NCBI GenBank assembly: GCA_947460235.1
Contig: CANHGK010000025.1
Span: forward strand, 1-33,803
Direction: 5' to 3'
DNA: 33,803 nt
Source: Paenibacillaceae bacterium
Lineage (GTDB): Bacteria > Bacillota > Bacilli > Paenibacillales > CANHGK01
Positions 3,275 through 25,303 of the stretch are shown here, in pieces. Position 1 is the first letter of the stretch; each line of letters begins with the position of its first letter. The notes below the pieces were generated by a model that did no database searches, was not told the DNA's origin, and saw nothing but the letters and a program-made list of their open reading frames with translations. The position numbers and the translations under genes are program-made.

Positions 3275-6200
3275 ATGGGTTATCGATTTGGTATGGATAT
3301 TGGAATTGCTAGTTGTGGTTGGTCTGTAGTTGATATAGATAATGGACGAATTGTGGATATGGGTGTGCGTATTTTCGAGAAAGCAGAAAATCCTAAAACG
3401 GGAGAATCATTAAACTTGCCGCGCCGTACAGCAAGGGGACAACGACGACGCCTGAGAAGAAGGTCGTATCGGATTGAAGATATAAGAGATCTATTCGTCG
3501 AGCAAGGAATGTTCAGTTCAACGGAAGATTTGTTAGATGAATTGTCTATGGTTAGAGAATTCGATCATTCGGTTTGGGATTTGCGAGTTAAAGGGTTGGA
3601 ACACAAGTTGACTGCAATCGAATGGGCACGTGTGCTAATTCGGATTGCAAAAAGACGTGGTTATCAATCGAATCGACGGTTGGAAGCAGGAGAAACAGAA
3701 GATACGAAAGCAGAAGAACGCGGTGTTGTATTACAAAAAATTCAATCACTTCGAATGCATCAAGAGCAAGGGTCATTTCGCACGATTGGTGAAACGTTAG
3801 CGAAGCATGAATCATATCAGGAATATAAAAGAAATCGACATGGCAAACATCGTTTTCATATTAATCGATCAATGTTAGTTGAAGAAGTAGATCTACTTTT
3901 TGAAGCACAGCGTCGAGATGGAAATCCATATGCAACCGAAGCGTTTCAACAGCAATATCGGAAATTAGCATTTGATCAACGTCCTTTTGCGACGAGAGAA
4001 TTGTTGGAACGTAAAATCGGCTATTGTACGTTTGTAAAAACGGACAAGCGTTCTCCTAAATTTTCGAGAAGTAGTGAATTATTCGTGATGTTGCAAAAGA
4101 TTAATCATTTGCGATTAATTGAAGCAGGAGCAGAACGTGGATTAACAGATGAAGAACGACAATTATTAATAGAACATGCACATGACCAAAAAGAATTGAA
4201 ATACACAAGTGTTCGTCGTTTGTTGAAGCTGTCTGATACTCAAAAATTCAAAGGATTAACGTATGGCGGTATCTCGATTAAAAGCTTGAACGAGGCTGAG
4301 TCGGAAACAGAGAAAACGAAACCAGTTAAAAAAGCTAAAAATCCAGAAGATACGAGATTTGTTCAACTGAAATTTTATCATGTTGTAAAGGACGCGTTAG
4401 CTGAACATGCTCAATTAGATTGGGAAATGTTGTTGCAAGATCGAAAAAGTTTTGATCAATTAGGCGATGTCCTTACCTTGTGTAAAAACGAATATGAAAT
4501 GGAACGTGACTTGAATATATTAGGATTGTCTGAGCAAGCGAAACAGGCTTGTGTGGGGTTGAGTTTCTCAGGTTATGGACATCTATCGAATGCTGCTTAC
4601 GATCGAATTATACCTTTTCTTGAAGAAGGACTGACATATGATAAGGCTTGTGAAGCTGCAGGTTTTGATTTTAGGGATCAAACGCATGAAAAACAAAAAT
4701 TCTTAAAAGTAATTGATCCCGAAGAAATTCGTAATCCAGTTGTGTTACGCGCTTTGACTCAATCCCGGAAAGTAATTAATGCAATGATTCGTGAATATGG
4801 TACGCCAGGGGCAGTGCATATTGAGGTTGCGCGTGAAATGTCCAAGCCTTATGAGGAACGAAAGAATATTAAGAAAATGATCGAATCGAATCGTGCCGAG
4901 AAAGATAAGGTCGTAGAGTTCATGAAAAAGGAATTTCCGATGTTTCGTAATCGAGATCCTAAAGCGTTTGATGTGCTCAAATATAAATTGTACCGTGAAC
5001 AACATGGAAAATGTTTATACTCTGGGTTAGCGATAGATCTAAATCGTATTTTTGGAGAAGATGGTTACGTAGAAGTAGATCATATCTTACCTATGAGTCG
5101 AACAATGGATGATTCTTATATGAATAAGGTACTTGTATTGCAAAAAGAAAATCGAAATAAACGCAATCAAACACCATTCGAATGGTTCGGCCGAGATGCG
5201 AAACGGTGGGCTGAATTTGAAGCAATCATAAAAGTAGTTCCCTACAAAAAGCAATTAAATCTATTACGTAAATCGCTGGGCGAGGAACAGACAAAAGATT
5301 TTATGAGCCGGAATTTAAATGATACTCGCTATATCGCAAGGTTTTTTAGCAAATTTGTTCGCGATCATTTGATTATTGAGAGTGGAAAAGTTGTATGCGT
5401 GAACGGTCAACTTACCGCATTTTTACGAACACGATTTGGGTTAGGTAATTTGAAGGATCGTTCAGAAGATATTCATCATGCTGTGGATGCGGTGATGATT
5501 GCCATTGCCAATGAAGCGATGATGAAACGTGCATCCGAGTTTCATAAACGGAAAGAATTGTACGGAGTGAAAGCGGGCGATCATTTTGTGGACCGAGAAA
5601 CTGGAGAGATTCTGGATGATCGGTATTGCCATGTCGATCGTGACGAGAAATTCCCACTTCCTTGGAACGATTTTCGTTTTGAAGTGTTGTGCCGGTTAGG
5701 AATTGATCCGCATGAAAAGCGATCGGATCTTCCAGATGAATCCGATTTGCGACGCATTCATGATCCAAAAGAACTTCTTGAGAAATATAGCTTAAATGCA
5801 TATGTTGGGTTGACTGAAAAAGAGTGGAGATGGGTCCGTCCAATGTTCGTCTCACGTGCACCGCGCCGAAATGTGACGGGAAAAGCACATCAGGATACGA
5901 TCAAAGGACTACGTACATTAGAAGAAGTTGAAGTGAAAGTGAAAAAGACATCTCTTGCATCGCTTGTTGGAAACTCCAAAAAAACGATGGGGCGAGACGA
6001 AGTCGATAAAATAATTAACACGATCTTCGGTGAGGATCCGAATATGAAAAAAGCAGTTCGCGATTGGTTGCTGTATACACCAAATCTACAAGAAGCAATT
6101 AAGAATGAGGATTTCCCTAGAAAGACTGCCAAAAATGGATTGGGACCAATGATTCGTAGCGTGAAAATTATTGAATCATCCTTGTCCGGCGTCCGATTAA

Positions 6201-6643
6201 ATGGCGGAAAAGCAATTGCCGAAAATGATGCAATGGTACGGATTGATATTTTCGAAAAAGCAGGAAAGTATTATGCAGTGCCTATCTATGTTGCGGATAC
6301 AGTAAAGATAGAGTTGCCTAATCGGGCGGCGCTTGCTCATAAACCAGAAACAGAATGGGATATCATGGATGAAAATTATAGGTTTTGTTTTACCTTATAT
6401 CCGAATGATTTGGTTAAATTAGAAGTTCGAGGAAGTAAATATTTTGGTTATTTTGGTGGCTTTGATCGGTCGACAGCATTGTTGGAAATTCTTTCACATG
6501 ATCGTAGTGGTGGTAAAGACGGAAAGTATAGGGGATTAGGGTTTAAACTTGGCGTTATTAAATTTCAAAAATATGTGATTGATCCAATTGGTTATTACTA
6601 TCCGGTAAAAGGGGAAAAGCGTCTTGGCTTTTCGCAGTGTTAG
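3275..6643 (+). CDS. cas9: CRISPR-associated endonuclease Cas9, type II-C
   Basis: This is an RNA-guided nuclease that cuts both strands of target DNA. At 1122 aa it is compact, in the II-C range. RuvC-I is FGMDIGIASCGW with D8. An arginine-rich bridge helix (RRTARGQRRRLRRRSYR) lies around residues 50-66. RuvC-II is VHIEVAREMSK with E517. The HNH domain has D602-H603 in VEVDHILPMS and N626, and RuvC-III is IHHAVDAVMIA with H735 and D738. All catalytic residues are present. The remaining C-terminal part should hold the WED and PAM-interacting domains; the PAM cannot be read from sequence. TAGGGGGCAG provides the ribosome site before ATG. The end overlaps cas1 by 20 bases. No csn2 or cas4 is present, which fits subtype II-C. 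Confidence 0.97.
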   Translation: MGYRFGMDIGIASCGWSVVDIDNGRIVDMGVRIFEKAENPKTGESLNLPRRTARGQRRRLRRRSYRIEDIRDLFVEQGMFSSTEDLLDELSMVREFDHSVWDLRVKGLEHKLTAIEWARVLIRIAKRRGYQSNRRLEAGETEDTKAEERGVVLQKIQSLRMHQEQGSFRTIGETLAKHESYQEYKRNRHGKHRFHINRSMLVEEVDLLFEAQRRDGNPYATEAFQQQYRKLAFDQRPFATRELLERKIGYCTFVKTDKRSPKFSRSSELFVMLQKINHLRLIEAGAERGLTDEERQLLIEHAHDQKELKYTSVRRLLKLSDTQKFKGLTYGGISIKSLNEAESETEKTKPVKKAKNPEDTRFVQLKFYHVVKDALAEHAQLDWEMLLQDRKSFDQLGDVLTLCKNEYEMERDLNILGLSEQAKQACVGLSFSGYGHLSNAAYDRIIPFLEEGLTYDKACEAAGFDFRDQTHEKQKFLKVIDPEEIRNPVVLRALTQSRKVINAMIREYGTPGAVHIEVAREMSKPYEERKNIKKMIESNRAEKDKVVEFMKKEFPMFRNRDPKAFDVLKYKLYREQHGKCLYSGLAIDLNRIFGEDGYVEVDHILPMSRTMDDSYMNKVLVLQKENRNKRNQTPFEWFGRDAKRWAEFEAIIKVVPYKKQLNLLRKSLGEEQTKDFMSRNLNDTRYIARFFSKFVRDHLIIESGKVVCVNGQLTAFLRTRFGLGNLKDRSEDIHHAVDAVMIAIANEAMMKRASEFHKRKELYGVKAGDHFVDRETGEILDDRYCHVDRDEKFPLPWNDFRFEVLCRLGIDPHEKRSDLPDESDLRRIHDPKELLEKYSLNAYVGLTEKEWRWVRPMFVSRAPRRNVTGKAHQDTIKGLRTLEEVEVKVKKTSLASLVGNSKKTMGRDEVDKIINTIFGEDPNMKKAVRDWLLYTPNLQEAIKNEDFPRKTAKNGLGPMIRSVKIIESSLSGVRLNGGKAIAENDAMVRIDIFEKAGKYYAVPIYVADTVKIELPNRAALAHKPETEWDIMDENYRFCFTLYPNDLVKLEVRGSKYFGYFGGFDRSTALLEILSHDRSGGKDGKYRGLGFKLGVIKFQKYVIDPIGYYYPVKGEKRLGFSQC

Positions 6644-7541
6644 AATTAGTAATCCAACCGACCTAAGTGTGCAAAATCAGCAATTGATGATTAAACAAAA
6701 TGGAGAGATTATTAAAGTTCCTCTGGAAGATATTGCAACGATTACGCTGGAAGATCCAGCGATTCGACTAAGTGTTCACGTATTGCGAGAAGCATCAATT
6801 CGGGGGATTATGGTGATTGTGTGCGATGAACAACATATGCCATCAGGAATTCTGACTCCTTTTATGAATCATTCTCGTCAGTTACAAGTCATGCAATTGC
6901 AATTAGGTTTATCTAAGCCTTTTCTAAAACGAATCTGGCAAAAAATTATTCGTCGTAAAATTGAAAATCAAGCGAGATGTTGTGAACTGTTGGGTGAAAC
7001 CGACGCAGCAACAGAATTGAGAACGATAATGGATGCAGTTGGTTCTGGTGATCCCACGAACCGAGAAGCTGTTGCGGCCAGAATTCATTTCATCGCTGTA
7101 TTCGATTCGAAATTTCGAAGGCGAAACCCAACTGATTGGCGCAATGCTGCGCTTAATTATGGATATGCAATTTTGCGAGCGGGTATTGCACGCGTTGTGA
7201 CGGAATATGGTTTCCTGCCTGCGTGGGGAATTGAACATGAGAGTGAATTAAATCCATTTAATTTGGTAGATGATTTTCTCGAACCTTATCGACCGATTGT
7301 CGACTTATTTGTGGTAAAATGGGAAGAACAGGATGAGTCGGGACATCATCTTACACCTCCACTCAAGTCTGGTTTAACCGGCTTGTTGCACAGTTCAATT
7401 CGAATGAACGGGGAGGAATGTAGCGTGTTACATTCAATGGATTTGATGTTGAAAAGTTATGTAGGTGCGTGTCGGGCAGAAGATGTTAGGCAACTGGTAT
7501 TGCCTGAATTGATTCCCATCAAACGGCACAGTTATGAGTAA
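6624..7541 (+). CDS. cas1: CRISPR-associated integrase Cas1
   Basis: Cas1 with Cas2 inserts new spacers into the array. The 305-aa product has the expected metal ligands E148 (NREAVAARIHF), H205 (GIEHESELNPF) and E220 (DDFLEPYRPIVD), matching the spacing of type II Cas1 proteins. The start is TTG at 6624, supported by AAAGGGGAA at 6608-6616 and by MAFRSVRISNP as a typical N-terminus. It lies inside the end of cas9 (20-base overlap). The stop overlaps the cas2 start by 8 bases, so translational coupling is likely across cas9-cas1-cas2. Nothing appears broken. Confidence 0.96.
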   Translation: MAFRSVRISNPTDLSVQNQQLMIKQNGEIIKVPLEDIATITLEDPAIRLSVHVLREASIRGIMVIVCDEQHMPSGILTPFMNHSRQLQVMQLQLGLSKPFLKRIWQKIIRRKIENQARCCELLGETDAATELRTIMDAVGSGDPTNREAVAARIHFIAVFDSKFRRRNPTDWRNAALNYGYAILRAGIARVVTEYGFLPAWGIEHESELNPFNLVDDFLEPYRPIVDLFVVKWEEQDESGHHLTPPLKSGLTGLLHSSIRMNGEECSVLHSMDLMLKSYVGACRAEDVRQLVLPELIPIKRHSYE

Positions 7542-11170: not shown

Positions 11171-12283
11171 ATGGGAAAATGTAATTGCCCTCCAGGACCT
11201 CCTGGACCTGAAGGTCCTGAAGGACCACAGGGAGAACCGGGACCACAAGGACCACAAGGAGCGCAGGGAGCACAAGGAGCACAAGGAGCACAAGGAGCAC
11301 AAGGAGCACAAGGAGCACAAGGAGCACAAGGGGCACAAGGAGCACAAGGGGCACAAGGGGCACAAGGAGCACAAGGAGCACAAGGAGAACCGGGACCACA
11401 GGGAGAACCGGGACCACAAGGAGCGCAGGGAGCACAAGGAGCACAAGGAGCACAAGGAGAACCGGGACCACAGGGAGAACCGGGACCACAAGGAGCGCAA
11501 GGAGCGCAAGGAGCGCAAGGAGCGCAAGGAGCACAAGGAGCACAAGGCGCACAAGGCGCACAAGGAGAACCGGGACCACAAGGAGAACCAGGACCACAAG
11601 GAGAACCAGGACCACAAGGAGTACAAGGAGCACAAGGGGCACAAGGCGCACAAGGCGCACAAGGGGCACAAGGGGCACAAGGAGCGCAAGGAGCGCAAGG
11701 AGCGCAAGGACCACAAGGACCGCAAGGAGAACCGGGAGCAGCAGGAGGGTTAATTCCATTTTCAACGGGAATCATTCTCAGTGGTGCTAGCGTCGTATCT
11801 GCTGCTCCAATTTTAATGGGATTTGGTAATCATACGGTTGAAGTTATTAACGGGTCTGGTGAATCAACGATGCCACCAGAAGCAGGTGGTTTTGCTTTCC
11901 CAATTCCCTTTGCAGGAACTGTTCAAAATTTACAAATAAGCGCAGATTTACTGGTTGCTTCAGTGGCATCTATAAATGTGACTGCTCTAGTATATGATTT
12001 TACAGTTTTCGTCGCACCTTCAGTTCCTAATAATGGGATTAGTCATCTTTCTTCACTTTACTTAACAACTCCGCTGACTAGCTCGCTTACTTTTGGAGGT
12101 CCTGGTAATACAATTACTGCCGGTACTTTCAATACAGCAACCAATATAAATGTCGGATCATTAACAGTCGCAGCGGGTGATCGTATTGGTATTCGTATAA
12201 GGACGCGTGTTGCGTCTGATCCCTCATCAGCTGATATCACCCAACTCTCATTTAGTGCTAGTCTGTCTTATACGCCTGCTTAA
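11171..12283 (+). CDS. Collagen-like exosporium protein, BclB-type C-terminus
   Basis: This is a 370-aa likely surface filament protein of the spore. After [16 protein letters not shown] comes an uninterrupted Gly-X-Y tract to about residue 193, mostly GAQ with blocks of GEPGPQ; such tracts form collagen-like triple helices and vary in copy number. The C-terminal domain (about 194-370), starting [12 protein letters not shown] and including [26 protein letters not shown] and [11 protein letters not shown], resembles the BclB C-terminal domain that trimerises the tip. The classical BclA leader for exosporium attachment is not recognisable; two cysteines (C4, C6) near the N-terminus may serve instead. 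GGGAGATGAG before the ATG is the ribosome site. The repeat tract gives long false ORFs in other frames. Confidence 0.9.
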
Positions 12284-12392: not shown

Positions 12393-12916
12393 GTATTGCG
12401 CGCCCAGAGGCGCGCATCTTCTTGCCGGTGAAAGTCCGGTCACAGGAGGGGCCAAGCCCCTGTGTAGCTAGGATACCTACGTATGGCGAAATCTGTGTGT
12501 AGAAGCGTATCGACAAAAGTACTGTTCGGAGAGCAGGCGAGCAATTCATCAGGTCGTAACATGAAGTGAATCCTGCCGCGTCGTCAAAAAGGCCTTGCAA
12601 AAGGGAAAAGAGGAAGTCGAGCCTTGAGTACATGGGCGAAGACCAAGGAAGTTGCTTAGAACTTGGATCGGCAACGAAGAAACCTCCGGCGTAAGGGGAA
12701 CGACATGATGGAACAGAAGATGCAGCGAACTGGGGAGACCCTCCCCTGCACGATGAACAACATCGTAAAACGAACCGCTATAAGTCGAAGTGACGAAGTG
12801 CGGGTTTGGTAGGAAGGGAGTCAGAGGGGTGCATAGTACCGAAGAGCGCAGGACAACACAACCTGCGGGAGGGAAGGCGCCCTGCTTTGTTCACGTTTTT
12901 CGAGGAGGTAAGCACC

Positions 12917-14197
12917 GTGAATGCCGAACGGCTAACGACACCAACAGAAAAAGTGCAAGAACTTCAAGAGAAACTAGGTCATGCGGCCAAGGAAAACAAG
13001 AAGCGAAGATTTCACGCCCTGTATGACAAAGTGTACCGGATGGATGTGCTCAGAGAAGCGTGGCGGCGGGTGAAGAAAAACGGTGGTGCGGCAGGTGTCG
13101 ATAGAATCACAATCAAAGACATCGAAGAACAAGGAGAAACGCTGTTCTTACTAAAATGCCAACACATGCTCCGTGAAGGGAAATACCGCCCCAGTCCAGT
13201 TCGGAGACAATATATTCCGAAGAAGGACGGAAAGCAACGACCACTCGGGATACCGACGGTACAGGACCGAGTCATACAAATGGCGACCAAGCTCGTGATT
13301 GAACCGATCTTTGAGGCAGATTTTCAAGACACATCGTTTGGCTTCCGACCAAAACGAGACGCGAAACAAGCGCTTGATCGCGTCCGAAAAGCATGCAACC
13401 GAAAAGGGAATTGGGTGATCGACGTCGACATCCAAGGCTACTTCGACAACATCAACCAAGAGAAGTTGATGAAACTGGTGGAAATGCGAATCAGTGATCG
13501 ACGAATCCTGAAATTGATCCGGAAGTGGTTAACGGTAGGCGTGATGGAGGAAGGAAGCGTCAAACGATCGGATGTGGGAACCCCTCAGGGAGGGGTCATC
13601 TCACCTTTGTTGGCGAACATTTATCTGAATTACTTTGATGTACTCTGGGATACGTATGGGGAACTGACGAGATACGCGGACGATTTCGTGGTGGTCTGTA
13701 AAACAAAAGCAGATGCAGATCGAGCATTTGAAGTGATCAGAACGATCATGGAAAGATTGGAACTCACGCTTCACCCAACCAAAACCCGAATCGTAGGATT
13801 ATGGACAGGAGAAGAAGGATTTGATTTCCTTGGGCTACACCATCGGAAGACAAAAGCGGAAAACTCGCAGGGGAAACTGTACTTCACAACCCAACAATGG
13901 ATCGGTAAGAAAGCTGAACAAACGATCCGCGATGAAGTCAAAGAACGACTCGCCCCGCCAAGCATGCGATTTCTGTCATTCGAAGACCATATAAGATGGT
14001 TGAATGAACGAATCCCGGGTTGGAGGAACTACTACCATACACCGTATGGACTGAAGAAATTGGCAAAGTTGGACTGGTACGTACATCAACGGATGACGAA
14101 GTGGTATGCGAAGAAGAGACAACGAAGTAGATGGATGGGTTCATCAAGAGAAGTGAAAAGGATTTCTAAACAACTTGGATTAAAGACGCTATTGTGA
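12917..14197 (+). CDS. ltrA: Group II intron reverse transcriptase/maturase
   Basis: The 426-aa protein binds its intron RNA, helps splicing and copies the intron into DNA. RT motifs run in order: KNGGAAGVDRIT near 55, RRQYIPKKDGKQRPLGIPT near 105-125, SFGFRPKRDAKQAL near 155, VDIQGYFDNI near 185, GTPQGGVISPLLANIYL near 235-250 and the catalytic YADD in LTRYADDFVVV near 270. A maturase X domain fills the rest (for example PGWRNYYHTPYGLKKL). No C-terminal HNH endonuclease domain is present, as usual for class C. The GTG start at 12917 is chosen because GAGGAGG lies about 8 bases upstream; an ATG at 12806 would lie inside the ribozyme and add an unrelated N-terminus. The gene symbol is by family analogy. 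Confidence 0.93.
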   Translation: MNAERLTTPTEKVQELQEKLGHAAKENKKRRFHALYDKVYRMDVLREAWRRVKKNGGAAGVDRITIKDIEEQGETLFLLKCQHMLREGKYRPSPVRRQYIPKKDGKQRPLGIPTVQDRVIQMATKLVIEPIFEADFQDTSFGFRPKRDAKQALDRVRKACNRKGNWVIDVDIQGYFDNINQEKLMKLVEMRISDRRILKLIRKWLTVGVMEEGSVKRSDVGTPQGGVISPLLANIYLNYFDVLWDTYGELTRYADDFVVVCKTKADADRAFEVIRTIMERLELTLHPTKTRIVGLWTGEEGFDFLGLHHRKTKAENSQGKLYFTTQQWIGKKAEQTIRDEVKERLAPPSMRFLSFEDHIRWLNERIPGWRNYYHTPYGLKKLAKLDWYVHQRMTKWYAKKRQRSRWMGSSREVKRISKQLGLKTLL

Positions 14198-16370: not shown

Positions 16371-16586
16371 ATGAAGGAAATTCAAATGATTATTAAATCA
16401 ATTCGTGAATCAAGAGGTATTTCGCAGGGTGAGCTGGCTAGGTTAACTGGAGTAAGTCAATCGGCAATTTCAGATATTGAAAATAACAAAAGAAATCCAT
16501 CGTTACTCACGATTACGCTGATTGCTGAGGCACTACAATTACCGGTGGATGCATTAATGCAATCAAAGTTGGATGAGACGAAATGA
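16371..16586 (+). CDS. XRE-family HTH regulator
   Basis: A 71-aa DNA-binding protein that is almost entirely one lambda-repressor-like helix-turn-helix: IKSIRESRGISQGELARLTG (helices 1-2), VSQSAISDIENNKRNPS (recognition helix) and LLTITLIAEALQLPVDALMQ. It most likely represses or switches the conjugation operon it heads, through the inverted repeat at 16272-16295. The ATG at 16371 is preferred over the ATG at 16347 because AAGGGAG lies 7 bases upstream. Its stop overlaps the virD4 start in ATGA, so the two are translationally coupled. Confidence 0.9.
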   Translation: MKEIQMIIKSIRESRGISQGELARLTGVSQSAISDIENNKRNPSLLTITLIAEALQLPVDALMQSKLDETK

Positions 16587-18562
16587 ATCAACCGTATGGT
16601 CGAACACGAACTTCTTTAATTGACGGCTGGGATTGGATCGTAATCGGTTGCGTTTACGTTTTTGTGGCATGGATCGTGTGGCACTGGGCCATGGTGAAAG
16701 TCATGTATGTTGATCGTTCGACCTTGGATATTCTGTGGGTACTTTTCGATCAACTGGATGAAAAGCCGTTTGAATTCACATGGAACGATTCCATTTGGAA
16801 TCAGTTTTGGAGTGTGCAACTTCTGCTTGTTCCAGGTTATTTGATTGCGTGTCTGATGTATGTAACGAGACGTCCAAAACGAGATTATGCACGAATCGAA
16901 TACGGATCAGCTGCGTGGGCATCCACAGAAGAAGTAAAAGCGTTTGCTGGGATGGAAGGGAAGATTGTACTGAGTCAGGATCTATTTTTGGATCCAGCTA
17001 CTCGGCAAGTGAACTTGAACCAACTCGTCATTGGAGGATCTGGAGCTGGTAAATCAAGAAGCAAAATCATTCCGGATTTATTACAAGCGAATACAAGTTT
17101 TGTGGTGACAGATCCAAAGGGTGAATTATATCGCACGTGTGCGGGGGTGTTATTGGATCAGGGATATCAAATTCGCATGTTACATTTAATCGATCCTTCA
17201 CTTTCCCATCGGTATAATCCGTTCCATTATTTGCGGGAGGATAAAGATGTTCTGATTCTTGTGGATACGATCATGAAGAATACGAGTGATCCGCGTAAAA
17301 GTGGGGGAGATGAGTTCTGGGTCAAATCCGAGACTGCGCTGTTGCAGGCGATTTTATATTACTTATGGCATGTGAGACCGCCTGAGGAACAACACTTGGC
17401 TGGTGTGCTAGCAATGGTTACATCGGCCCGTGTGGCAGAGGAGAGCTCAAAAGAATCGGATAATCCACTTGAGCGAGTCTTTGATGATTTATCAGCGATG
17501 GATGCAAGACATATTGCGGTTCGTTGCTACGATGTTTTCCGGCTTGCGACGGGGAAAACGGCGAAATCCATTTTGGTGTCGCTTGCGGTACGCTTATCAG
17601 TTTTTCAGACGGATGATATGGCAGCACTCACTGCAAGTGACGAAATGCAACTTGATCAAATCGGTGCAGAAAAAACAGCGATTTTCTTAATCCTTTCGGA
17701 TTCGCACAGCGCGTTTCATGTCATTGCCGCGCTATTTTACTCGCAGATGTTTCAGTTCTTATTTTATGAGGCGGACCATCGTTATGGAGGGCAATTGCCA
17801 ATCCCGGTTCAAGCGTTGCTTGATGAGTTTGCAAACATTGGTAAAATTCCTGATTTTGACCAGTTAATTGCAACGATGCGATCGCGCCGGGTGAGCGTGA
17901 CGGTGGTTTTGCAATCACTATCGCAATTGAAAAATCGTTACCGAGATTCATGGGAAACAATCGTAGGATGTTGTGATTCGCTCATTTATTTGGGGACGCA
18001 GGACCAAGAAACAAGGCAGTACATCTCGCGGATGCTTGGGAAAACAACGATTATCGTAGACGGAAAAAGCAAAACACGTTCAAGCAGAAGTGCTTCGCGG
18101 AGTGAAAACGAACAGCGTATCTCCCGTGAATTGATGAGTGCGGACGAGCTGTTACGAATGGAACGGATCAATAGCATTGTTTTCGTAAGAGGATACCGGC
18201 CGTTTTGGACGAGAAAATTCGATGTGACCACGCATCCATGTTATTCATGTGTCCGAGTTCCAGATCCACTCATTCAGCGAAAGGGAACAGACATCCCGAC
18301 TTTCCGTCCAGGTGATGTGGTTCACGATCGGAATGATCGGTCGTTAGATCAGGATCAATTGATTCAGCTAGTTCAATTGCAACAAGACGCGAAACATCAA
18401 ATGGAATTGAGTGAACAACGGGCATTTCGCAAGAAATTGGATGAACGCGTGGAGGGTACGAAGTTGCATCCACTGACGATTCAAATGATCGACCCGCTTG
18501 GGGATGAGGATGAATCGATTGATGATCTGACACATGAGATTGAACGATTATTACAAAAATGA
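16583..18562 (+). CDS. Type IV coupling protein (VirD4/TraG ATPase)
   Basis: This 659-aa inner-membrane ATPase brings the relaxase-DNA complex to the secretion channel. Two transmembrane segments lie near residues 10-35 and 65-92, followed by a cytoplasmic RecA-like domain. Walker A is GGSGAGKS (G151-S158, K157) and FVVTDPKGELYR follows; Walker B is LLDEFANIG (D414, E415). The STRYSQL-like QSLSQLKNRY segment near 455 and the arginine-rich region beyond fit the TraG/TraD/VirD4 family. The start overlaps the regulator stop by four bases, and the end overlaps the pilin ORF by four. All key residues are intact. Confidence 0.95.
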   Translation: MNQPYGRTRTSLIDGWDWIVIGCVYVFVAWIVWHWAMVKVMYVDRSTLDILWVLFDQLDEKPFEFTWNDSIWNQFWSVQLLLVPGYLIACLMYVTRRPKRDYARIEYGSAAWASTEEVKAFAGMEGKIVLSQDLFLDPATRQVNLNQLVIGGSGAGKSRSKIIPDLLQANTSFVVTDPKGELYRTCAGVLLDQGYQIRMLHLIDPSLSHRYNPFHYLREDKDVLILVDTIMKNTSDPRKSGGDEFWVKSETALLQAILYYLWHVRPPEEQHLAGVLAMVTSARVAEESSKESDNPLERVFDDLSAMDARHIAVRCYDVFRLATGKTAKSILVSLAVRLSVFQTDDMAALTASDEMQLDQIGAEKTAIFLILSDSHSAFHVIAALFYSQMFQFLFYEADHRYGGQLPIPVQALLDEFANIGKIPDFDQLIATMRSRRVSVTVVLQSLSQLKNRYRDSWETIVGCCDSLIYLGTQDQETRQYISRMLGKTTIIVDGKSKTRSSRSASRSENEQRISRELMSADELLRMERINSIVFVRGYRPFWTRKFDVTTHPCYSCVRVPDPLIQRKGTDIPTFRPGDVVHDRNDRSLDQDQLIQLVQLQQDAKHQMELSEQRAFRKKLDERVEGTKLHPLTIQMIDPLGDEDESIDDLTHEIERLLQK

Positions 18563-18927
18563 GACGAGGAATGAGCGATATGACAAAAAGTTGGGTAAAA
18601 GCAAAACAAGTTTGGTTCCATCCGAAAACACATCAATTCGTGATGTATAGTGTGACAATTATTGGTGCGGTGATTATTTTTACGGAACCTGTATATGCGG
18701 CTGGCGGTGCTACTGGGGCAACAGGAACAAAAATCGACCTACTCGCACAAACCATCGCTGGGTGGTCACAAAAGGTTGGCGGCGTGATTGCCTTCTTCGG
18801 CGGATTGCAAACGGCGATGGGGTTTAAGAACGATGATCCAGAAGTCAAAAACAAGGGGCTCAAAACCATCGCATCGGGCGGATTGGTGGCGGCCGTTGCG
18901 ACTGGGTACGCAACATGGATCGACTAA
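18559..18927 (+). CDS. VirB2/TrbC-like pilin subunit
   Basis: A small membrane protein of 115-122 aa. A signal-like segment (MYSVTIIGAVIIFTEPVYAA, near 29-48) is followed by a Gly-rich GGATGATGT stretch and two hydrophobic helices, about 75-87 (GGVIAFFGGLQTA) and 104-119 (IASGGLVAAVATGYAT). This plan matches VirB2/TrbC pilins and the Maff2-type proteins of Gram-positive conjugative elements. Position between coupling protein and VirB6 also fits. Starts are uncertain: ATG 18559 (ATGA overlap with virD4), 18571 or 18580; the last has GAGGA about 9 bases upstream and may be the true one. The end overlaps the virB6 start by 13 bases. Confidence 0.7.
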   Translation: MRRGMSDMTKSWVKAKQVWFHPKTHQFVMYSVTIIGAVIIFTEPVYAAGGATGATGTKIDLLAQTIAGWSQKVGGVIAFFGGLQTAMGFKNDDPEVKNKGLKTIASGGLVAAVATGYATWID

Positions 18928-20246
18928 GTGATTTGACGTTCTCTAAATACATATTCGCTTTTGTCGTAATGATCTCGATTTTTGGATGGGGCGGACAGCT
19001 TGCAAGTGCAGCTGGAATCGATCCCATCCGAGTTACGGCACTGAGTAGCGAAAAATGGTATTTCGAATGGGATGGTATCCCAACATCAAATTGGTACCGT
19101 GTTGTATTGAATGCACCGGGATGTTTTGGAATAACGACGAGTTATGACCGAAGTGCGATTTTTGCAAATGAGTTATCCGGAAAAACATCGGCGACGCTAA
19201 CAGTGATCGGGATTCAGGTTTACGGTGTCGATGAGCAAGGGAACTATCAGTCACGGGAAGCGGGAAGAAAAACATTCACATTTAATCCTGAGCAAGAACT
19301 TTCGCCGGACGGGATGCTTGACGCACTGCAAAAGGGATTTGATCGCGTCGCCGTGACGACAACGAATTTGCCGCAATTATTTGCCGCAGATTTGAACGAA
19401 TCGTTTCAGCGAATTCTATTTGAACTTTGGAAGACGATTACGATGTGGATGGGCATGATTCAGGAAAAAATGCAGCAAGACGACATCACGACCATCCCGA
19501 TTGTCCAAGCAGTAGAGCAAGCGGTCAGGCCAATCGCTTATAGCTTACTCGCGTTATTCTTTGTGATGGAGTTTTCGACGAAGACGATTCGTTTTGAAAC
19601 GTCGACGAACGAAGGAATCGCAAAAGTCATCTTACAACTTCTGTTCGCAAAATATATGACAGATAGCAGTTTGTTCATCATTCAACTGATTTTGGATGTG
19701 AATCACGAACTTGTGGATCTCATATTTCATGCAGGCAACGTAAAAAACATCAATGATCTGATTGCCTATCAGACGATTTTTACTCCAGATTCGATTGGGG
19801 TGATTCACGGGGTGATCGATAGCATGATTGCCGTCATTGGTTTATTGATCGCGTCACTTGTGATTGTCGTACTTTGGTTGCTGATTTACGCAATTATTTA
19901 CATCCGAGTCATGGAACTATGTGTGATGACCGCAGTGTCTCCGCTGTTTTTTGCAACACTGGCCGGGGACGTAACGAATGATGTGTTCAAGGGATTTATC
20001 AAGTCACTGATTGGCTTGGCACTTCAAACGACGTTCATGTCGGTATCGATCGTATTTTTCTCGAACGGCCTTGTAAATATGATGACGTCAGGACAGTCAA
20101 TGTTTCAAGGGGTCGGTGATTTTATGATTGGGATGCTAACACTTGCAATTTTCATCATCAAAACACCAAACGCATTACGTCAAGTGCTCGGCGGAGGCGG
20201 AGCGTCAGGAAGTTTGTCGTCACTTTTATTACTCGTTCGAAAATAA
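18915..20246 (+). CDS. VirB6/TrbL-like channel protein with extracytoplasmic N-domain
   Basis: This 443-aa protein is the polytopic inner-membrane part of the secretion channel. It starts with a signal peptide (TFSKYIFAFVVMISIFGWGG, cut near SAAG). Residues about 35-130 read like a fibronectin-III-like beta domain (for example SEKWYFEWDGIP, NWYRVVLN, TATLTVIGIQVYG-like ATLTVIGIQVYGVDEQGNYQ). Five or more hydrophobic segments follow from about 210 to 420, including GLLIASLVIVVLWLLIYAII, CVMTAVSPLFFATLAG and DFMIGMLTLAIFIIKTPNAL, the VirB6/TrbL hallmark plan. It overlaps the pilin gene by 13 bases. The N-terminal domain is unusual for VirB6 and may face the cell wall. Confidence 0.85.
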   Translation: MDRLSDLTFSKYIFAFVVMISIFGWGGQLASAAGIDPIRVTALSSEKWYFEWDGIPTSNWYRVVLNAPGCFGITTSYDRSAIFANELSGKTSATLTVIGIQVYGVDEQGNYQSREAGRKTFTFNPEQELSPDGMLDALQKGFDRVAVTTTNLPQLFAADLNESFQRILFELWKTITMWMGMIQEKMQQDDITTIPIVQAVEQAVRPIAYSLLALFFVMEFSTKTIRFETSTNEGIAKVILQLLFAKYMTDSSLFIIQLILDVNHELVDLIFHAGNVKNINDLIAYQTIFTPDSIGVIHGVIDSMIAVIGLLIASLVIVVLWLLIYAIIYIRVMELCVMTAVSPLFFATLAGDVTNDVFKGFIKSLIGLALQTTFMSVSIVFFSNGLVNMMTSGQSMFQGVGDFMIGMLTLAIFIIKTPNALRQVLGGGGASGSLSSLLLLVRK

Positions 20247-20812: not shown

Positions 20813-21159
20813 AAATTCCGAAAGACATTCGTACGTATCAGGAGAAAGTGTTTATGGGAATGTCGGTCCGTCAAACGATCAGCATGGTCCTTGCACTTGG
20901 GATCGACGTACCAATGTATTACGTGCTGACGGCACATGGGGTGGGCACTGAACTTGTTAGTTGGATTGTCATTGGATTTGGAATGGCCTTCTTGAGTATT
21001 GGTTTTTTCAGTTACAACGGAATGACGGTTGAGAAATTTATTATTCAATATATCAAAACACAGTTTTGGTGGCCAATGAGACGAACGTACCAAAGTGGTC
21101 ACGCATGGGGAGGGGAATGGGATGAACTGGTTTCGAAGCGTGGCAACGAAAGAAAATAA
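20803..21159 (+). CDS. PrgI-family membrane protein (VirB3-like)
   Basis: A 118-aa membrane protein that typically sits next to VirB4 and corresponds to VirB3. Family features are the opening VKIPKDIRTYQEKVFMGMSV, then two hydrophobic helices (TISMVLALGIDVPMYYVL, about 26-43, and LVSWIVIGFGMAFLSIGFFS, about 51-71) and NGMTVEKFIIQYIKTQFW. The ATG at 20803 is preferred to 20788 because it starts exactly at the family N-terminus and has GGGAGATGG about 6 bases upstream. It overlaps the upstream lipoprotein gene by 10 bases and the virB4 gene by 38. Confidence 0.9.
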   Translation: MEVKIPKDIRTYQEKVFMGMSVRQTISMVLALGIDVPMYYVLTAHGVGTELVSWIVIGFGMAFLSIGFFSYNGMTVEKFIIQYIKTQFWWPMRRTYQSGHAWGGEWDELVSKRGNERK

Positions 21160-23488
21160 ATCGGTAACGATGCGATCGCGAAAATTGACGGTGCCCAAAA
21201 CCGTACAAGCAACCATGCCATTTGAAACGTTGTTTTTGGGTGGTCTCATCCAAGTCGATCCGATGCGCTATGCGCGGATCGCTATGTTTCAAAACGTAAA
21301 CTATACCTTGGCAAAAGTGGACGAGCAGTCATTTTTATTTTCGCAATATAGTGAGTGGTTGAATTCGCTCGATCAAGAAATTCATGTGCAACTTTTTTTG
21401 AGTACATATGCGATTGACCCAGAGACCGTGTGGGAGGCAATGGCTCCTTTGGAAGTGGACCCAAAATATGCGGAACTAGCCAGCGATTATGAACGAGTGA
21501 TGCACGTTCAAGTGCAAGAGAGCCACCATCAAACATCCGAAAAGCGTTATTATGTCGTGATCAGTGTGGAGGCAAAAGATCCAGATCATGCCGATCAGCG
21601 ACTGAGCCGTGTGATGCATGAATCCGAGGCTCATTTTCAAAAAATGGGGAGTAGTATGCGGCCCGTCGGTTCGGAGCAAGTCGTTCAGCTATTGTATGGG
21701 CTATACAATATGAAAGAAGAACATACGCAGCCCCTTCGCGGAAATGAAACTGCGATTGGTAGGGGCGCATCCGTGAAAGATAAGATTGCACCACCGAGTT
21801 TTAAGTTCAAGATCAATCATGTGCATGTTGGCGAGACCTTCGCGCGAACGCTGTTTGTTCGAGATTTTCCGAGTTCGCTGAACGATGCGATGATTGCAAG
21901 CTTGGTGGATTGTCCATTTACATTATCCGTTGCAATTCATATCCAACCGACGGATTCCGCCGATGCGATCCGTTTGATCAAGAAAAAGATCACGGGGATG
22001 GAGTCCAATAAATTGGATTACATTCGAAAAGGTGCACGAATCAGTCCGCACTACCAGTTTGTACCTTATGAGTTACAGACGGCCCTTGAAGAGGCACAAC
22101 ACTTGTTGAATCAGATCGTGAAAGAGAATAAGAAACTGTTTTTTGTGGGGATCTATTTAACTGTGTTTGCGGATTCACTCGATGAACTCGATGGTCGAAC
22201 GAAAACCGTACAAAGCATTTGTCGTCGTTTTTTGACTCGGGCAGATGTGCTCACGCATCAGCAGGAAGATGGATTGGCAAGTGTGTTGCCCTTTGGAAAG
22301 GACAAAATCGGTAATACGCGTACGATGCTCACGGACAGCACGGCGATCTTTTTACCGTTCTCGACGCAAGATGTATTTCAGCCTGGTGGATTCTGTTACG
22401 GCCGAAATCGTGTGTCCGGTAGCTTGATTGTTTTTAATCGAAAGCAATTGCAAAATGCGAGTGGATTCATTCTTGGTGTTCCAGGTAGCGGCAAGTCGTT
22501 TCGGGCAAAACGGGAGATTGTCGATGTGCTGCTGAATACCGGAGATGATGTGATCGTCATCGATCCCGAAAGGGAGTACAGTACGCTTTGTGAAAACTTC
22601 GGCGGTGAAGTGATTCGGATCGCATCCAATTCATCGCATACGATCAATCCGATGGACATGTCGAAGGACTATGCCGATGATGACAATCCGCTTACGGTTA
22701 AAGCAGAGTTTATTTTATCGCTGTGCGAAAGTTTGATGGGAAGTTTGAAACCGTCCGAAAAAACGATCATTGACCGTGCGATTTTGCGGACATATTCTGC
22801 GTATTTGAGTAGCGATTTTGACGAAGCTAAAATTCCAACGCTCCATGATTTTTATGAAACGGTGTGTCAGCAACCCGAAGAGGAAGCGAAAAATATTGCA
22901 CTTGCCTTAGAGATTTACATCAAAGGATCACTGAACATTTTCAGCAAGCGGACGAACATTAATTTGAACAATCGGTTCACCGTGTTCGATACGAAGGATC
23001 TCGGGAAGCAGCTTAAAAGCCTGGGGATGCTTGTCGTCCTCGATGCAGTATGGAACCGAGTTTGCAAAAACCGGAACAACGGCAAATACACGTGGATCTA
23101 TACCGATGAATTTTACTTACTATTTTCGAGTGAATACTCAGCTAACTTTTACTATGAACTGTACAAGCGTGCACGGAAATGGGGAGGGATTCCGACAGGC
23201 ATTACGCAGAATATTGAGGATCTGCTACGGAGTGATACGGCCCGGACGATGCTGTCGAATTCGCAGTTTTTACTATTACTGAATCAGGCAGCCTCAGACC
23301 GTCAAGAGCTTTCGAAACTGCTAAAAATCAGTTCCATGCAACTGTCATTTGTGACGAATGCGGACGAGGGTTGCGGACTACTCATCAGCACGAAACACGT
23401 CATTCCATTTCAAGATCGGTTCCCGAAAGACAATCGGCTGTACCGAATGATGACGACGAAAGTGGACGAGCTGCGGGTAGGTGATTGA
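21122..23488 (+). CDS. VirB4-family type IV secretion ATPase
   Basis: This 788-aa ATPase drives assembly and transport by the conjugation channel. The N-terminal half is the VirB4/CagE-type domain. The C-terminal ATPase has Walker A GVPGSGKSF (G452-S459, K458), the VIVIDPEREYSTL segment, and Walker B IYTDEFYLLF (D662, E663); GITQNIEDLLRS and LLLNQAASDRQELSKLL near the end are typical of the family. The ATG at 21122 follows GGGGAGGGG and starts inside prgI; an ATG at 21095 would extend it by nine residues without a good ribosome site. All nucleotide-binding motifs are intact. It is the last T4SS gene before the oriT candidate. Confidence 0.95.
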   Translation: MNWFRSVATKENKSVTMRSRKLTVPKTVQATMPFETLFLGGLIQVDPMRYARIAMFQNVNYTLAKVDEQSFLFSQYSEWLNSLDQEIHVQLFLSTYAIDPETVWEAMAPLEVDPKYAELASDYERVMHVQVQESHHQTSEKRYYVVISVEAKDPDHADQRLSRVMHESEAHFQKMGSSMRPVGSEQVVQLLYGLYNMKEEHTQPLRGNETAIGRGASVKDKIAPPSFKFKINHVHVGETFARTLFVRDFPSSLNDAMIASLVDCPFTLSVAIHIQPTDSADAIRLIKKKITGMESNKLDYIRKGARISPHYQFVPYELQTALEEAQHLLNQIVKENKKLFFVGIYLTVFADSLDELDGRTKTVQSICRRFLTRADVLTHQQEDGLASVLPFGKDKIGNTRTMLTDSTAIFLPFSTQDVFQPGGFCYGRNRVSGSLIVFNRKQLQNASGFILGVPGSGKSFRAKREIVDVLLNTGDDVIVIDPEREYSTLCENFGGEVIRIASNSSHTINPMDMSKDYADDDNPLTVKAEFILSLCESLMGSLKPSEKTIIDRAILRTYSAYLSSDFDEAKIPTLHDFYETVCQQPEEEAKNIALALEIYIKGSLNIFSKRTNINLNNRFTVFDTKDLGKQLKSLGMLVVLDAVWNRVCKNRNNGKYTWIYTDEFYLLFSSEYSANFYYELYKRARKWGGIPTGITQNIEDLLRSDTARTMLSNSQFLLLLNQAASDRQELSKLLKISSMQLSFVTNADEGCGLLISTKHVIPFQDRFPKDNRLYRMMTTKVDELRVGD

Positions 23489-23544
23489 CGTGGGTTGTTT
23501 GGTGGAAAGGGCTTGAAGTGCTTTTTACTGGTTTTGCAAGCATT

Positions 23545-23622
23545 GAAAGATGGCGCCATTCTGCTTCATCTTTCGGGGCCTCGCCCCCTTCCCCGCCTGG
23601 TGGCTCCGCCCCCAGACCCCTG
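23545..23622. promoter_or_regulatory. Candidate oriT
   Basis: The only sizable gap in the transfer operon (23489-23660) contains an 8-base inverted repeat, GAAAGATG (23545-23552) with CATCTTTC (23567-23574), then a sharply GC-rich patch (23575-23622) with the hairpin GGGGC CTC GCCCC and GCC TGGT GGC. Position just before mobC and the relaxase, inverted repeats and changed base composition are what an oriT should show. The nick site is not identified. Confidence 0.5.
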
Positions 23623-23660
23623 GTCAAAACAACAAAAAATATACGAAAGAGGATTTTTAA

Positions 23661-24044
23661 ATGACAGTAAGGGATCAGAGAACACTACGCATGAACCACC
23701 GAAAACCGGAACAAAGTGAACCGTTTCGGTATCCAAACATTCGGTTTACAGAGAGCGAGTGGGACCTTCTTCAGCTGCGTTTGGAGCAGTCTGGAATGAG
23801 TGCGCAGTCTTTCGGAAGGGACTGTTTACTTGGTCAACCGGTCGTTGTGATGAGCGGATTTTTAGAAATGGCAGAGCAGATTCGGCGCATCGGTGTGAAC
23901 GTGAATCAGGTCGCCAAAGTAGCAAATTACGATACGAGAATTAATGAAGAACATTTGGATGAAATCCATAAGGAACTAAAAATGATATGGCGATTACTAA
24001 GCAGCTTTCTATCCGAAGTTCGAGCAAAATCATCAACACGCTAA
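23661..24044 (+). CDS. mobC: MobC-like relaxosome accessory protein
   Basis: A 127-aa DNA-binding accessory protein that helps a relaxase open oriT. It has the usual MobC pattern: a ribbon-helix-helix-like stretch, PNIRFTESEWDLLQLRLEQS (residues 28-47), then GMSAQSFGRDCLLGQ, and the typical C-terminal block IRRIGVNVNQVAKVAN near 76-91, where the phrase GxNVNQ is characteristic. AGAGGA about 9 bases before the ATG is the ribosome site. It lies directly behind the oriT candidate and overlaps the relaxase gene by 58 bases. Confidence 0.9.
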   Translation: MTVRDQRTLRMNHRKPEQSEPFRYPNIRFTESEWDLLQLRLEQSGMSAQSFGRDCLLGQPVVVMSGFLEMAEQIRRIGVNVNQVAKVANYDTRINEEHLDEIHKELKMIWRLLSSFLSEVRAKSSTR

Positions 24045-25303
24045 ACTATATTATGAGGGCGGACAAGACAGAATCGATTTTAATTACCGGCATTCACTGT
24101 AATTCGGAAACGGCAAACGAAGAATTTGAGATGGTCAAATTGATGTTTGATAAATCTGATGGCGTGATCGGTCATCATGTGATTCAGAGTTTCACGCCTG
24201 GTGAAACGAATCCTGAACAAGCACATCGAGTTGGTGTTCAGCTGACCGAAGAAATCGCGCCGGGTTTTCAGGCGGTGGTTGCTACTCATTATGACAGGGA
24301 ACATGTACATAATCATATTTTGATTAATAGTGTGCACCCAGAAACGGGGCAAAAGTACTATGCGAATTTGGAACAGTATGAGCGGATTCGAGCGGTGAGC
24401 GATCGTCATTGTCTAGAAAATGGACTTTCGGTCATTTTAGAACCGAAGGATAAAGGATGGAATCAGGAGACGTACCAGACGGCACTTCGCGGCGAAAGTT
24501 GGAAAGTTCGCTTGATGAAAACGATCGATGAAGCGAAACGAACGAGCGGGGATCGCGATGAGTTTGTTGGATACATGGAGTCGATGGGGTTTGAAGTGAA
24601 GTGGCAGAACCGAAATGTGAGTTTCCGGGACCCAGATCATGAGAAATTTGTGCGGGGGAAGACGCTCGGAAAAAACTATACCAAGGAGTCGATTGAACAT
24701 GCCTTCGAAAGAGGAATTGATTCGGAGACACCAAACGCCGATCGAAGCGATGGAAGAGCGGATCGAGAAACAATTGAACCGAGTCGAGACGTTGCTCGGG
24801 ACGAACAAAGAAATGAACCGAGTGACACTCAAAGCGATTCAGCAGCTGATCGCGCAGCAACGAACGATCCAAACCGAATTGGAGACGATCAAGGCATCCT
24901 TGAATCGCGGGTAATGGAACGACTCAGCCGTGTGATCCGAACGGATGGACATGGCGAAGATGCCTTTGATGAACAAATGCGACTAGCAGGAGCGGTTGTT
25001 CAAATGATGGGATCGATGAATCGGACTGAGGAAACGGAGCAGGCAAAACGATATCGCGAGATGAAAGCGAGCGGGGAGCAAGTTACGTTCGAGAGGTTGA
25101 GTGAAAGTGAATGGGACAACATTAAAGGTATGGGAAAGGCGGCAGGATTTCGGGAAAAAGAAGGAATATTGGTGGCATATTTGCAGAAGGATCGGGAAGA
25201 GGTAAGAAGGCGAGTAGAGAGGAAAGCGATAAAAGAAAAGGATAGTTCGCGAGCGTTTAGAATGGAACATAACAAGATACGGGAGCGTGGATCGGATAGA
25301 TAA
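23987..25303 (+). CDS. MOBP-type relaxase (MobA/VirD2 family)
   Basis: The relaxase nicks oriT and leads the strand into the recipient. In the 438-aa product the likely nucleophile is Y21 (LNYIMRADKT). Motif II-like HHVIQSFTPGET lies near 65. Motif III is HYDREHVHNHILIN with H101, D103, H106, H108 and H110. The family resemblance is to relaxases of Gram-positive ICEs. Residues about 238-310 are charged, low-complexity and probably disordered (SDGRADRETIEPSRDVA and on), and this is where a second gene seems to be encoded in another frame. The C-terminal 100 residues are helical and basic. AAGGAA lies 12 bases before the ATG. A strong terminator follows the stop. Confidence 0.92.
   Translation: MAITKQLSIRSSSKIINTLNYIMRADKTESILITGIHCNSETANEEFEMVKLMFDKSDGVIGHHVIQSFTPGETNPEQAHRVGVQLTEEIAPGFQAVVATHYDREHVHNHILINSVHPETGQKYYANLEQYERIRAVSDRHCLENGLSVILEPKDKGWNQETYQTALRGESWKVRLMKTIDEAKRTSGDRDEFVGYMESMGFEVKWQNRNVSFRDPDHEKFVRGKTLGKNYTKESIEHAFERGIDSETPNADRSDGRADRETIEPSRDVARDEQRNEPSDTQSDSAADRAATNDPNRIGDDQGILESRVMERLSRVIRTDGHGEDAFDEQMRLAGAVVQMMGSMNRTEETEQAKRYREMKASGEQVTFERLSESEWDNIKGMGKAAGFREKEGILVAYLQKDREEVRRRVERKAIKEKDSSRAFRMEHNKIRERGSDR
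24699..24914 (+). CDS. Embedded overlapping gene: small coiled-coil protein
   Basis: A 71-codon frame lies wholly inside the relaxase gene, shifted by +1. It starts ATG at 24699 with a proper AAGGAG ten bases upstream (24683-24688) and ends TAA. The product, from MPSKEELIRRHQTPIEAMEE to TIQTELETIKASLNRG, has a strong heptad pattern (MEERIEKQLNRVETLL, LKAIQQLIAQQ) and looks like a real coiled coil, while the relaxase frame over the same bases is low-complexity. ColE1-type plasmids encode MbeB and MbeD inside mbeA in the same manner, and MbeD-like proteins are short coiled coils. Relaxase partner, mobilisation or entry-exclusion roles are possible. Similarity to MbeB/MbeD is in arrangement only. 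Confidence 0.6.
   Translation: MPSKEELIRRHQTPIEAMEERIEKQLNRVETLLGTNKEMNRVTLKAIQQLIAQQRTIQTELETIKASLNRG

Follow-up and report, generated by a model that had tools for sequence, protein, structure and literature searches.

Does the relaxase gene in this stretch of Paenibacillaceae DNA (the window, 33,803 nucleotides in all) hold a second gene in another reading frame and, if so, to which family does the second gene belong? A first-pass annotation had pointed to an open reading frame in the +1 frame of the relaxase gene, with an ATG, an AAGGAG ten bases upstream and a product of 71 residues, and all of these are present in the sequence as described (Table 1). In our judgement the frame is probably mobB, lying inside the relaxase gene in a mobC-relaxase operon; it would be a homologue of the mobB of pC221/pC223-type plasmids that is short and has no membrane anchor.

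Table 1 Features of the conjugation module and of the nested open reading frame (coordinates of the window)
Feature	Position	Strand	Remarks
VirD4-type coupling protein	16583..18562	+	PF02534, E 1.5e-70
Possible TrbL/VirB6-like membrane protein	18915..20246	+	PF04610, E 0.002, below family cut-off
VirB4-like ATPase	21095..23488	+	Full length; best matches annotated as CD1110 family
GGTGGCTCCGCCCCCA, candidate oriT element	23599..23614	+	Upstream of mobC; putative
MobC/NikA-like relaxosome accessory protein	23661..24044	+	PF21983, E 1.6e-13; PF05713, E 1.1e-10; overlaps relaxase start
MOBP-type relaxase, 438 aa	23987..25303	+	Pfam Relaxase PF03432, E 6.9e-35
AAGGAG ribosome-binding site of nested ORF	24683..24688	+	10 nt before ATG; conserved in relatives
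Nested mobB-like ORF, 71 aa	24699..24914	+	Relaxase +1 frame, relaxase codons 238-308; no membrane helix

The relaxase has a MobA/VirD2-like nuclease domain, with the HxDxxHxHNH motif present as THYDREHVHNH, and AlphaFold2 predicts a folded nuclease domain (residues 1-241, approximately) and a helical C-terminus. The relaxase frame opposite the nested gene had been called low-complexity, and this holds as a prediction: residues 245-303, a stretch that overlaps the nested gene, are disordered in the AlphaFold2 model (pLDDT about 30-40). Neither the plasmid collection nor 200 genomes of the order nor Pfam yielded a relative of the C-terminal 130 residues (codons 309-438, 24911-25300). The CD1110 family of VirB4 proteins is known from Tn1549-like elements. 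Between virB4 and mobC, GGTGGCTCCGCCCCCA sits in a GC-rich patch, and three other loci (L039, L129 and L130) have this 16-mer upstream of distant relaxases; it may represent an oriT element common to them all.

The same contig carries a type II CRISPR locus (3275-7541), in which a Cas9-like protein of 1122 aa with HNH and RuvC domains is followed by Cas1, as well as a group II intron reverse transcriptase/maturase at 12806-14197. A collagen-repeat protein is encoded at 11171-12283, and the long overlapping ORFs on both strands there are a by-product of the repeat.

Nested starts in related relaxases

The nested ORF runs from the ATG at 24699-24701 to a TAA at 24912-24914 and encodes MPSKEELIRRHQTPIEAMEERIEKQLNRVETLLGTNKEMNRVTLKAIQQLIAQQRTIQTELETIKASLNRG. 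Its AAGGAG is written within the Lys-Glu codons of the relaxase (TKES). Loci were collected from plasmids, GTDB genomes, IMG/VR and a genome search, and 157 relaxases could be aligned. A +1-frame start was found at the exact homologous codon, after the relaxase RGxxLGxxYxK motif, in 46 of these, so that the window ATG shares its codon with 45 relatives; the start is ATG in 41, TTG in three and GTG in two, and all except one have a ribosome site (at least 4 bases of AAGGAGGT upstream). The remaining 111 relaxases, mostly of the Tn1549/ICE type, have no start at this codon. Staphylococcal plasmids such as pC223 and S. epidermidis pSERP have mobB in this frame, beginning at this codon. The frame opens there also in Macrococcus, Carnobacterium, Vagococcus, pNe-1 and Alicyclobacillus plasmids, and throughout these plasmids it encodes a coiled-coil protein with C-terminal membrane helices. 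The idea that a nested gene of this kind would be new for a Gram-positive MOBP relaxase was thus mistaken, and it is contradicted as well by wholly nested copies in an Alicyclobacillus fastidiosus plasmid (L007, 163 aa), a Dethiobacter MAG (L051, 163 aa), Bacillus sp. V3B (L049, 185 aa) and clostridial elements (119-191 aa, including L052, L073 and L143).

On a tree of 96 relaxase cores the nested-start trait requires two changes, compared with 27.8 in shuffles. The window relaxase lies inside the mobB clade (37 rows, support 100/99), where a long branch attaches it close to the base. Its nearest neighbours are relaxases of rumen Clostridia (L048, L067 and L103), all without the start, and either the trait was lost in these three or the place of the window in the tree is unsure, given the long branches. 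No additional nested copy was found among further clostridial relatives (around G675, in IMG/VR), nor did GTDB genomes, IMG/VR or searches of the same family and order yield a close relative of the window relaxase. Searches with the 71-aa protein gave no plasmid match and weak matches only in genomes, and in Pfam and NCBIfam no family above cut-off, with generic coiled-coil matches only (e.g. DUF4200, E 0.0009).

Sequence similarity within the MobB family is low and partly low-complexity. By eye, the N-terminus of the window product, MPSKEELIRRHQ, resembles that of a clostridial MobB, MPSMEELKKKNQ; other clostridial nested N-termini are MNLIENLKEKNQ and SLEELKQRN, the clostridial nested MobBs having an N-terminal motif (S)xEELxxxN, and the bacillar consensus is MSLKDKLN. 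The match between the window and the clostridial proteins is suggestive, not proof, because on a simple profile built family-wide from the first 12 MobB residues the window ranks below every training sequence (p 0.05 against shuffles).

Pairs of close relatives, some of which share sequences and are therefore not independent, were compared for relaxase changes at codon positions 1/2/3 in the core and in the overlap. The counts were 30/15/109 of 220 in the core and 60/34/34 of 155 in the overlap for L025/L050, 42/22/90 of 219 and 32/16/14 of 146 for L016/L021, and 20/17/43 of 228 and 16/4/2 of about 119 for L052/L079. The third-position excess that is usual in the core vanishes over the overlap, which fits selection on the nested frame, since position 3 of the relaxase is position 2 of the nested frame. 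An alignment of homologues, which the first-pass annotation had proposed as a check, thus reveals in the relatives a clade that keeps the start, the ribosome site and an open +1 frame, with depressed third-position variation, and as far as these relatives are concerned the claim of a nested gene under selection stands, as judged from the pattern of substitutions.

For the same reasons, namely that the clade conserves the place of the start, its ribosome site and the openness of the +1 frame, and that third-position variation is depressed, the presence of a second gene in the relaxase gene is well supported by the homologues. Its homology to pC221/pC223-type mobB is indicated by position, frame and ribosome site and, less surely, by N-terminal sequence.

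The short product and the membrane anchor

AlphaFold2 predicts helices at residues 4-10 and 14-70 of the nested protein (pLDDT 93-98 in the core). The coiled coil claimed for it agrees with this single long helix and with the heptad contrast (p 0.008, see below). The product lacks a C-terminal membrane helix, its maximum 19-residue hydropathy being -0.02, whereas each of the remaining complete and intact copies reaches at least 1.6. No copy is shorter: the remaining complete MobB ORFs are 119-269 aa long and close with a membrane helix. L035 alone departs from this; like the window copy it has no hydrophobic segment, and it looks broken in comparison with its close relative L017. A sequencing frameshift was considered as an explanation for the shortness and rejected, as no membrane-helix sequence follows the stop in other frames and the relaxase frame is intact throughout. 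There are two readings of the window form, a soluble variant of MobB or a remnant left by truncation.

A remnant, which would still be of mobB ancestry, is a serious possibility, although we would place it somewhat short of even. The C-terminal part would have been lost as the relaxase tail changed, and the 71 codons may be translated into a non-working product. The membrane helix of the other complete copies is consistent with such a loss, and the truncated nested mobB of pAsal1 has been described as probably non-functional, since membrane anchoring depends on the C-terminus (PMC4655240). The state of the element is also compatible with decay. In related plasmids of Paenibacillus (L162 and L163), virB4 is followed by a gene for an NlpC/P60 wall hydrolase, and because this gene is missing from the window (23488-23661) the conjugation module may be incomplete; a search of the window's own genome, run without a positive control, found no homologue. 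Against a remnant, the nested gene retains its start and ribosome site as well as the heptad pattern and the predicted helix, the relaxase, MobC, VirB4 and VirD4 of the window are intact open frames, and no trace of a degraded membrane helix is seen past the stop in the other frames.

The alternative, which we put forward tentatively and regard as possible and not as probable, is a soluble, anchor-less MobB, a 71-residue coiled coil serving a conjugation module with its own VirD4 and VirB4. Neither VirD4 nor VirB4 was detectable in the short flanks of most nested-gene relatives, and possession of this module distinguishes the window from most of them. If the soluble form is real, the membrane anchor of MobB would be dispensable where the element brings its own secretion channel.

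For a working nested mobB we envisage the following course of events. Ribosomes translating the mobC-relaxase message would start MobB at the internal AAGGAG/ATG, at a point where the relaxase protein is probably a disordered tether. The coiled coil would form an oligomer that binds the relaxase or the relaxosome, contacting relaxase/MobC, and may help to deliver the relaxase to, and dock it at, the coupling protein and secretion channel. According to Projan and Archer (1989), mobB of pC221 is reportedly needed for mobilisation and not for relaxation. In the relatives MobB would be held by its C-terminal membrane helix, whereas the product of the window, lacking this helix, would have to act in solution; loss of the anchor is perhaps linked to the VirD4 and VirB4 that the element carries itself.

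The open frame and chance expectation

Synonymous shuffles of the relaxase gene, with protein and codon usage kept, served to estimate what the window ORF is worth by itself. The length of the ORF was rejected as evidence on its own, because a +1 ORF of at least 71 aa beginning with ATG arose in 57% of the shuffles. With a ribosome site added to the ATG the fraction was 16%, and the combination of ATG, AAGGAG and at least 71 open codons at the exact site 24699 had a probability of 5%. Given the relaxase residues, the probability of the ATG is 0.86 and that of the AAGGAG 0.14. The heptad contrast of the product was matched by 0.8% of the open synonymous shuffles. As shuffles so often give similar ORFs, the window by itself is weak to modest evidence, with a heptad content above chance.

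These figures bear on the view that the frame is open by chance, the Arg/Asp/Glu-rich codons of the relaxase tail yielding open, charged, helix-like +1 frames, and the ATG and AAGGAG following from residues conserved in the relaxase. The commonness of equally long ORFs and the high expectation of the ATG speak for it, but the start and ribosome site coincide with those of a clade-wide nested gene under selection in relatives, the heptad contrast exceeds what the shuffles deliver and the N-terminus is similar to clostridial MobB, so that chance seems unlikely. That the real product is instead a longer one, begun at ATG 24639 (91 aa) or TTG 24693, is very improbable: the +1 frame is open from 24621 and both codons are in frame, but no ribosome site precedes ATG 24639, TTG 24693 is too near the AAGGAG, and the relatives start at the homologue of 24699.

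The probable mobB of the window among known systems

We therefore return to a nested, anchor-less mobB as the preferred reading. Since nested mobB itself is already known, the new point is the short form without an anchor, whether functional or decayed, and it raises the question whether MobB needs a membrane anchor. Nested mobB can be located in Bacilli and Clostridia alike by one rule, namely a start placed at the codon that follows RGxxLGxxYxK[EG], together with AAGGAG, and this opens to testing both the evolution of the gene and its lack in Tn1549-type relaxases. The rule is also of practical use, as automatic annotation can start nested mobB too late or drop one of the overlapping genes (pC223, Alicyclobacillus fastidiosus). 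In the A. fastidiosus plasmid record (L007:3001-4338) the nested gene is annotated and the intact surrounding relaxase ORF is not.

The comparison with ColE1 drawn in the first-pass annotation is apt for the gene arrangement. In ColE1 the small helical helper genes mbeB and mbeD are nested in the MOBP relaxase gene mbeA, and mbeD is similar in size to the window ORF; the likeness is one of arrangement by analogy, the ColE1 system being Gram-negative and of the MOBP(HEN) subclass. The mobB of R1162/RSF1010 (MOBQ; PMC4655240), which lies within mobA in a frame other than that of the relaxase and encodes a small relaxosome helper, likewise resembles the window ORF in arrangement, but it belongs with another relaxase family and has a C-terminal membrane domain needed for anchoring.

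Closer than either is the pC221/pC223-type staphylococcal mobB, often annotated as a DUF334 protein, with relatives in Macrococcus, Carnobacterium, Vagococcus and Bacillus plasmids. It shares with the window the +1 frame of a MOBP relaxase, the identical start codon after RGxxLGxxYxK, a ribosome site about 10 nt upstream, a coiled-coil body and the order mobC-mobA-mobB. These proteins are longer (177-269 aa), their genes as a rule extend beyond the stop codon of the relaxase, and they finish in membrane helices, whereas the window copy has 71 aa, is wholly nested and has no membrane helix. The wholly nested MobBs of Alicyclobacillus, Dethiobacter, Bacillus and the Clostridia have in common with it the location inside the relaxase gene and the same start site, and differ in their greater length (119-185 aa in L007, L049, L051, L052, L073 and L143) and their C-terminal membrane helix.
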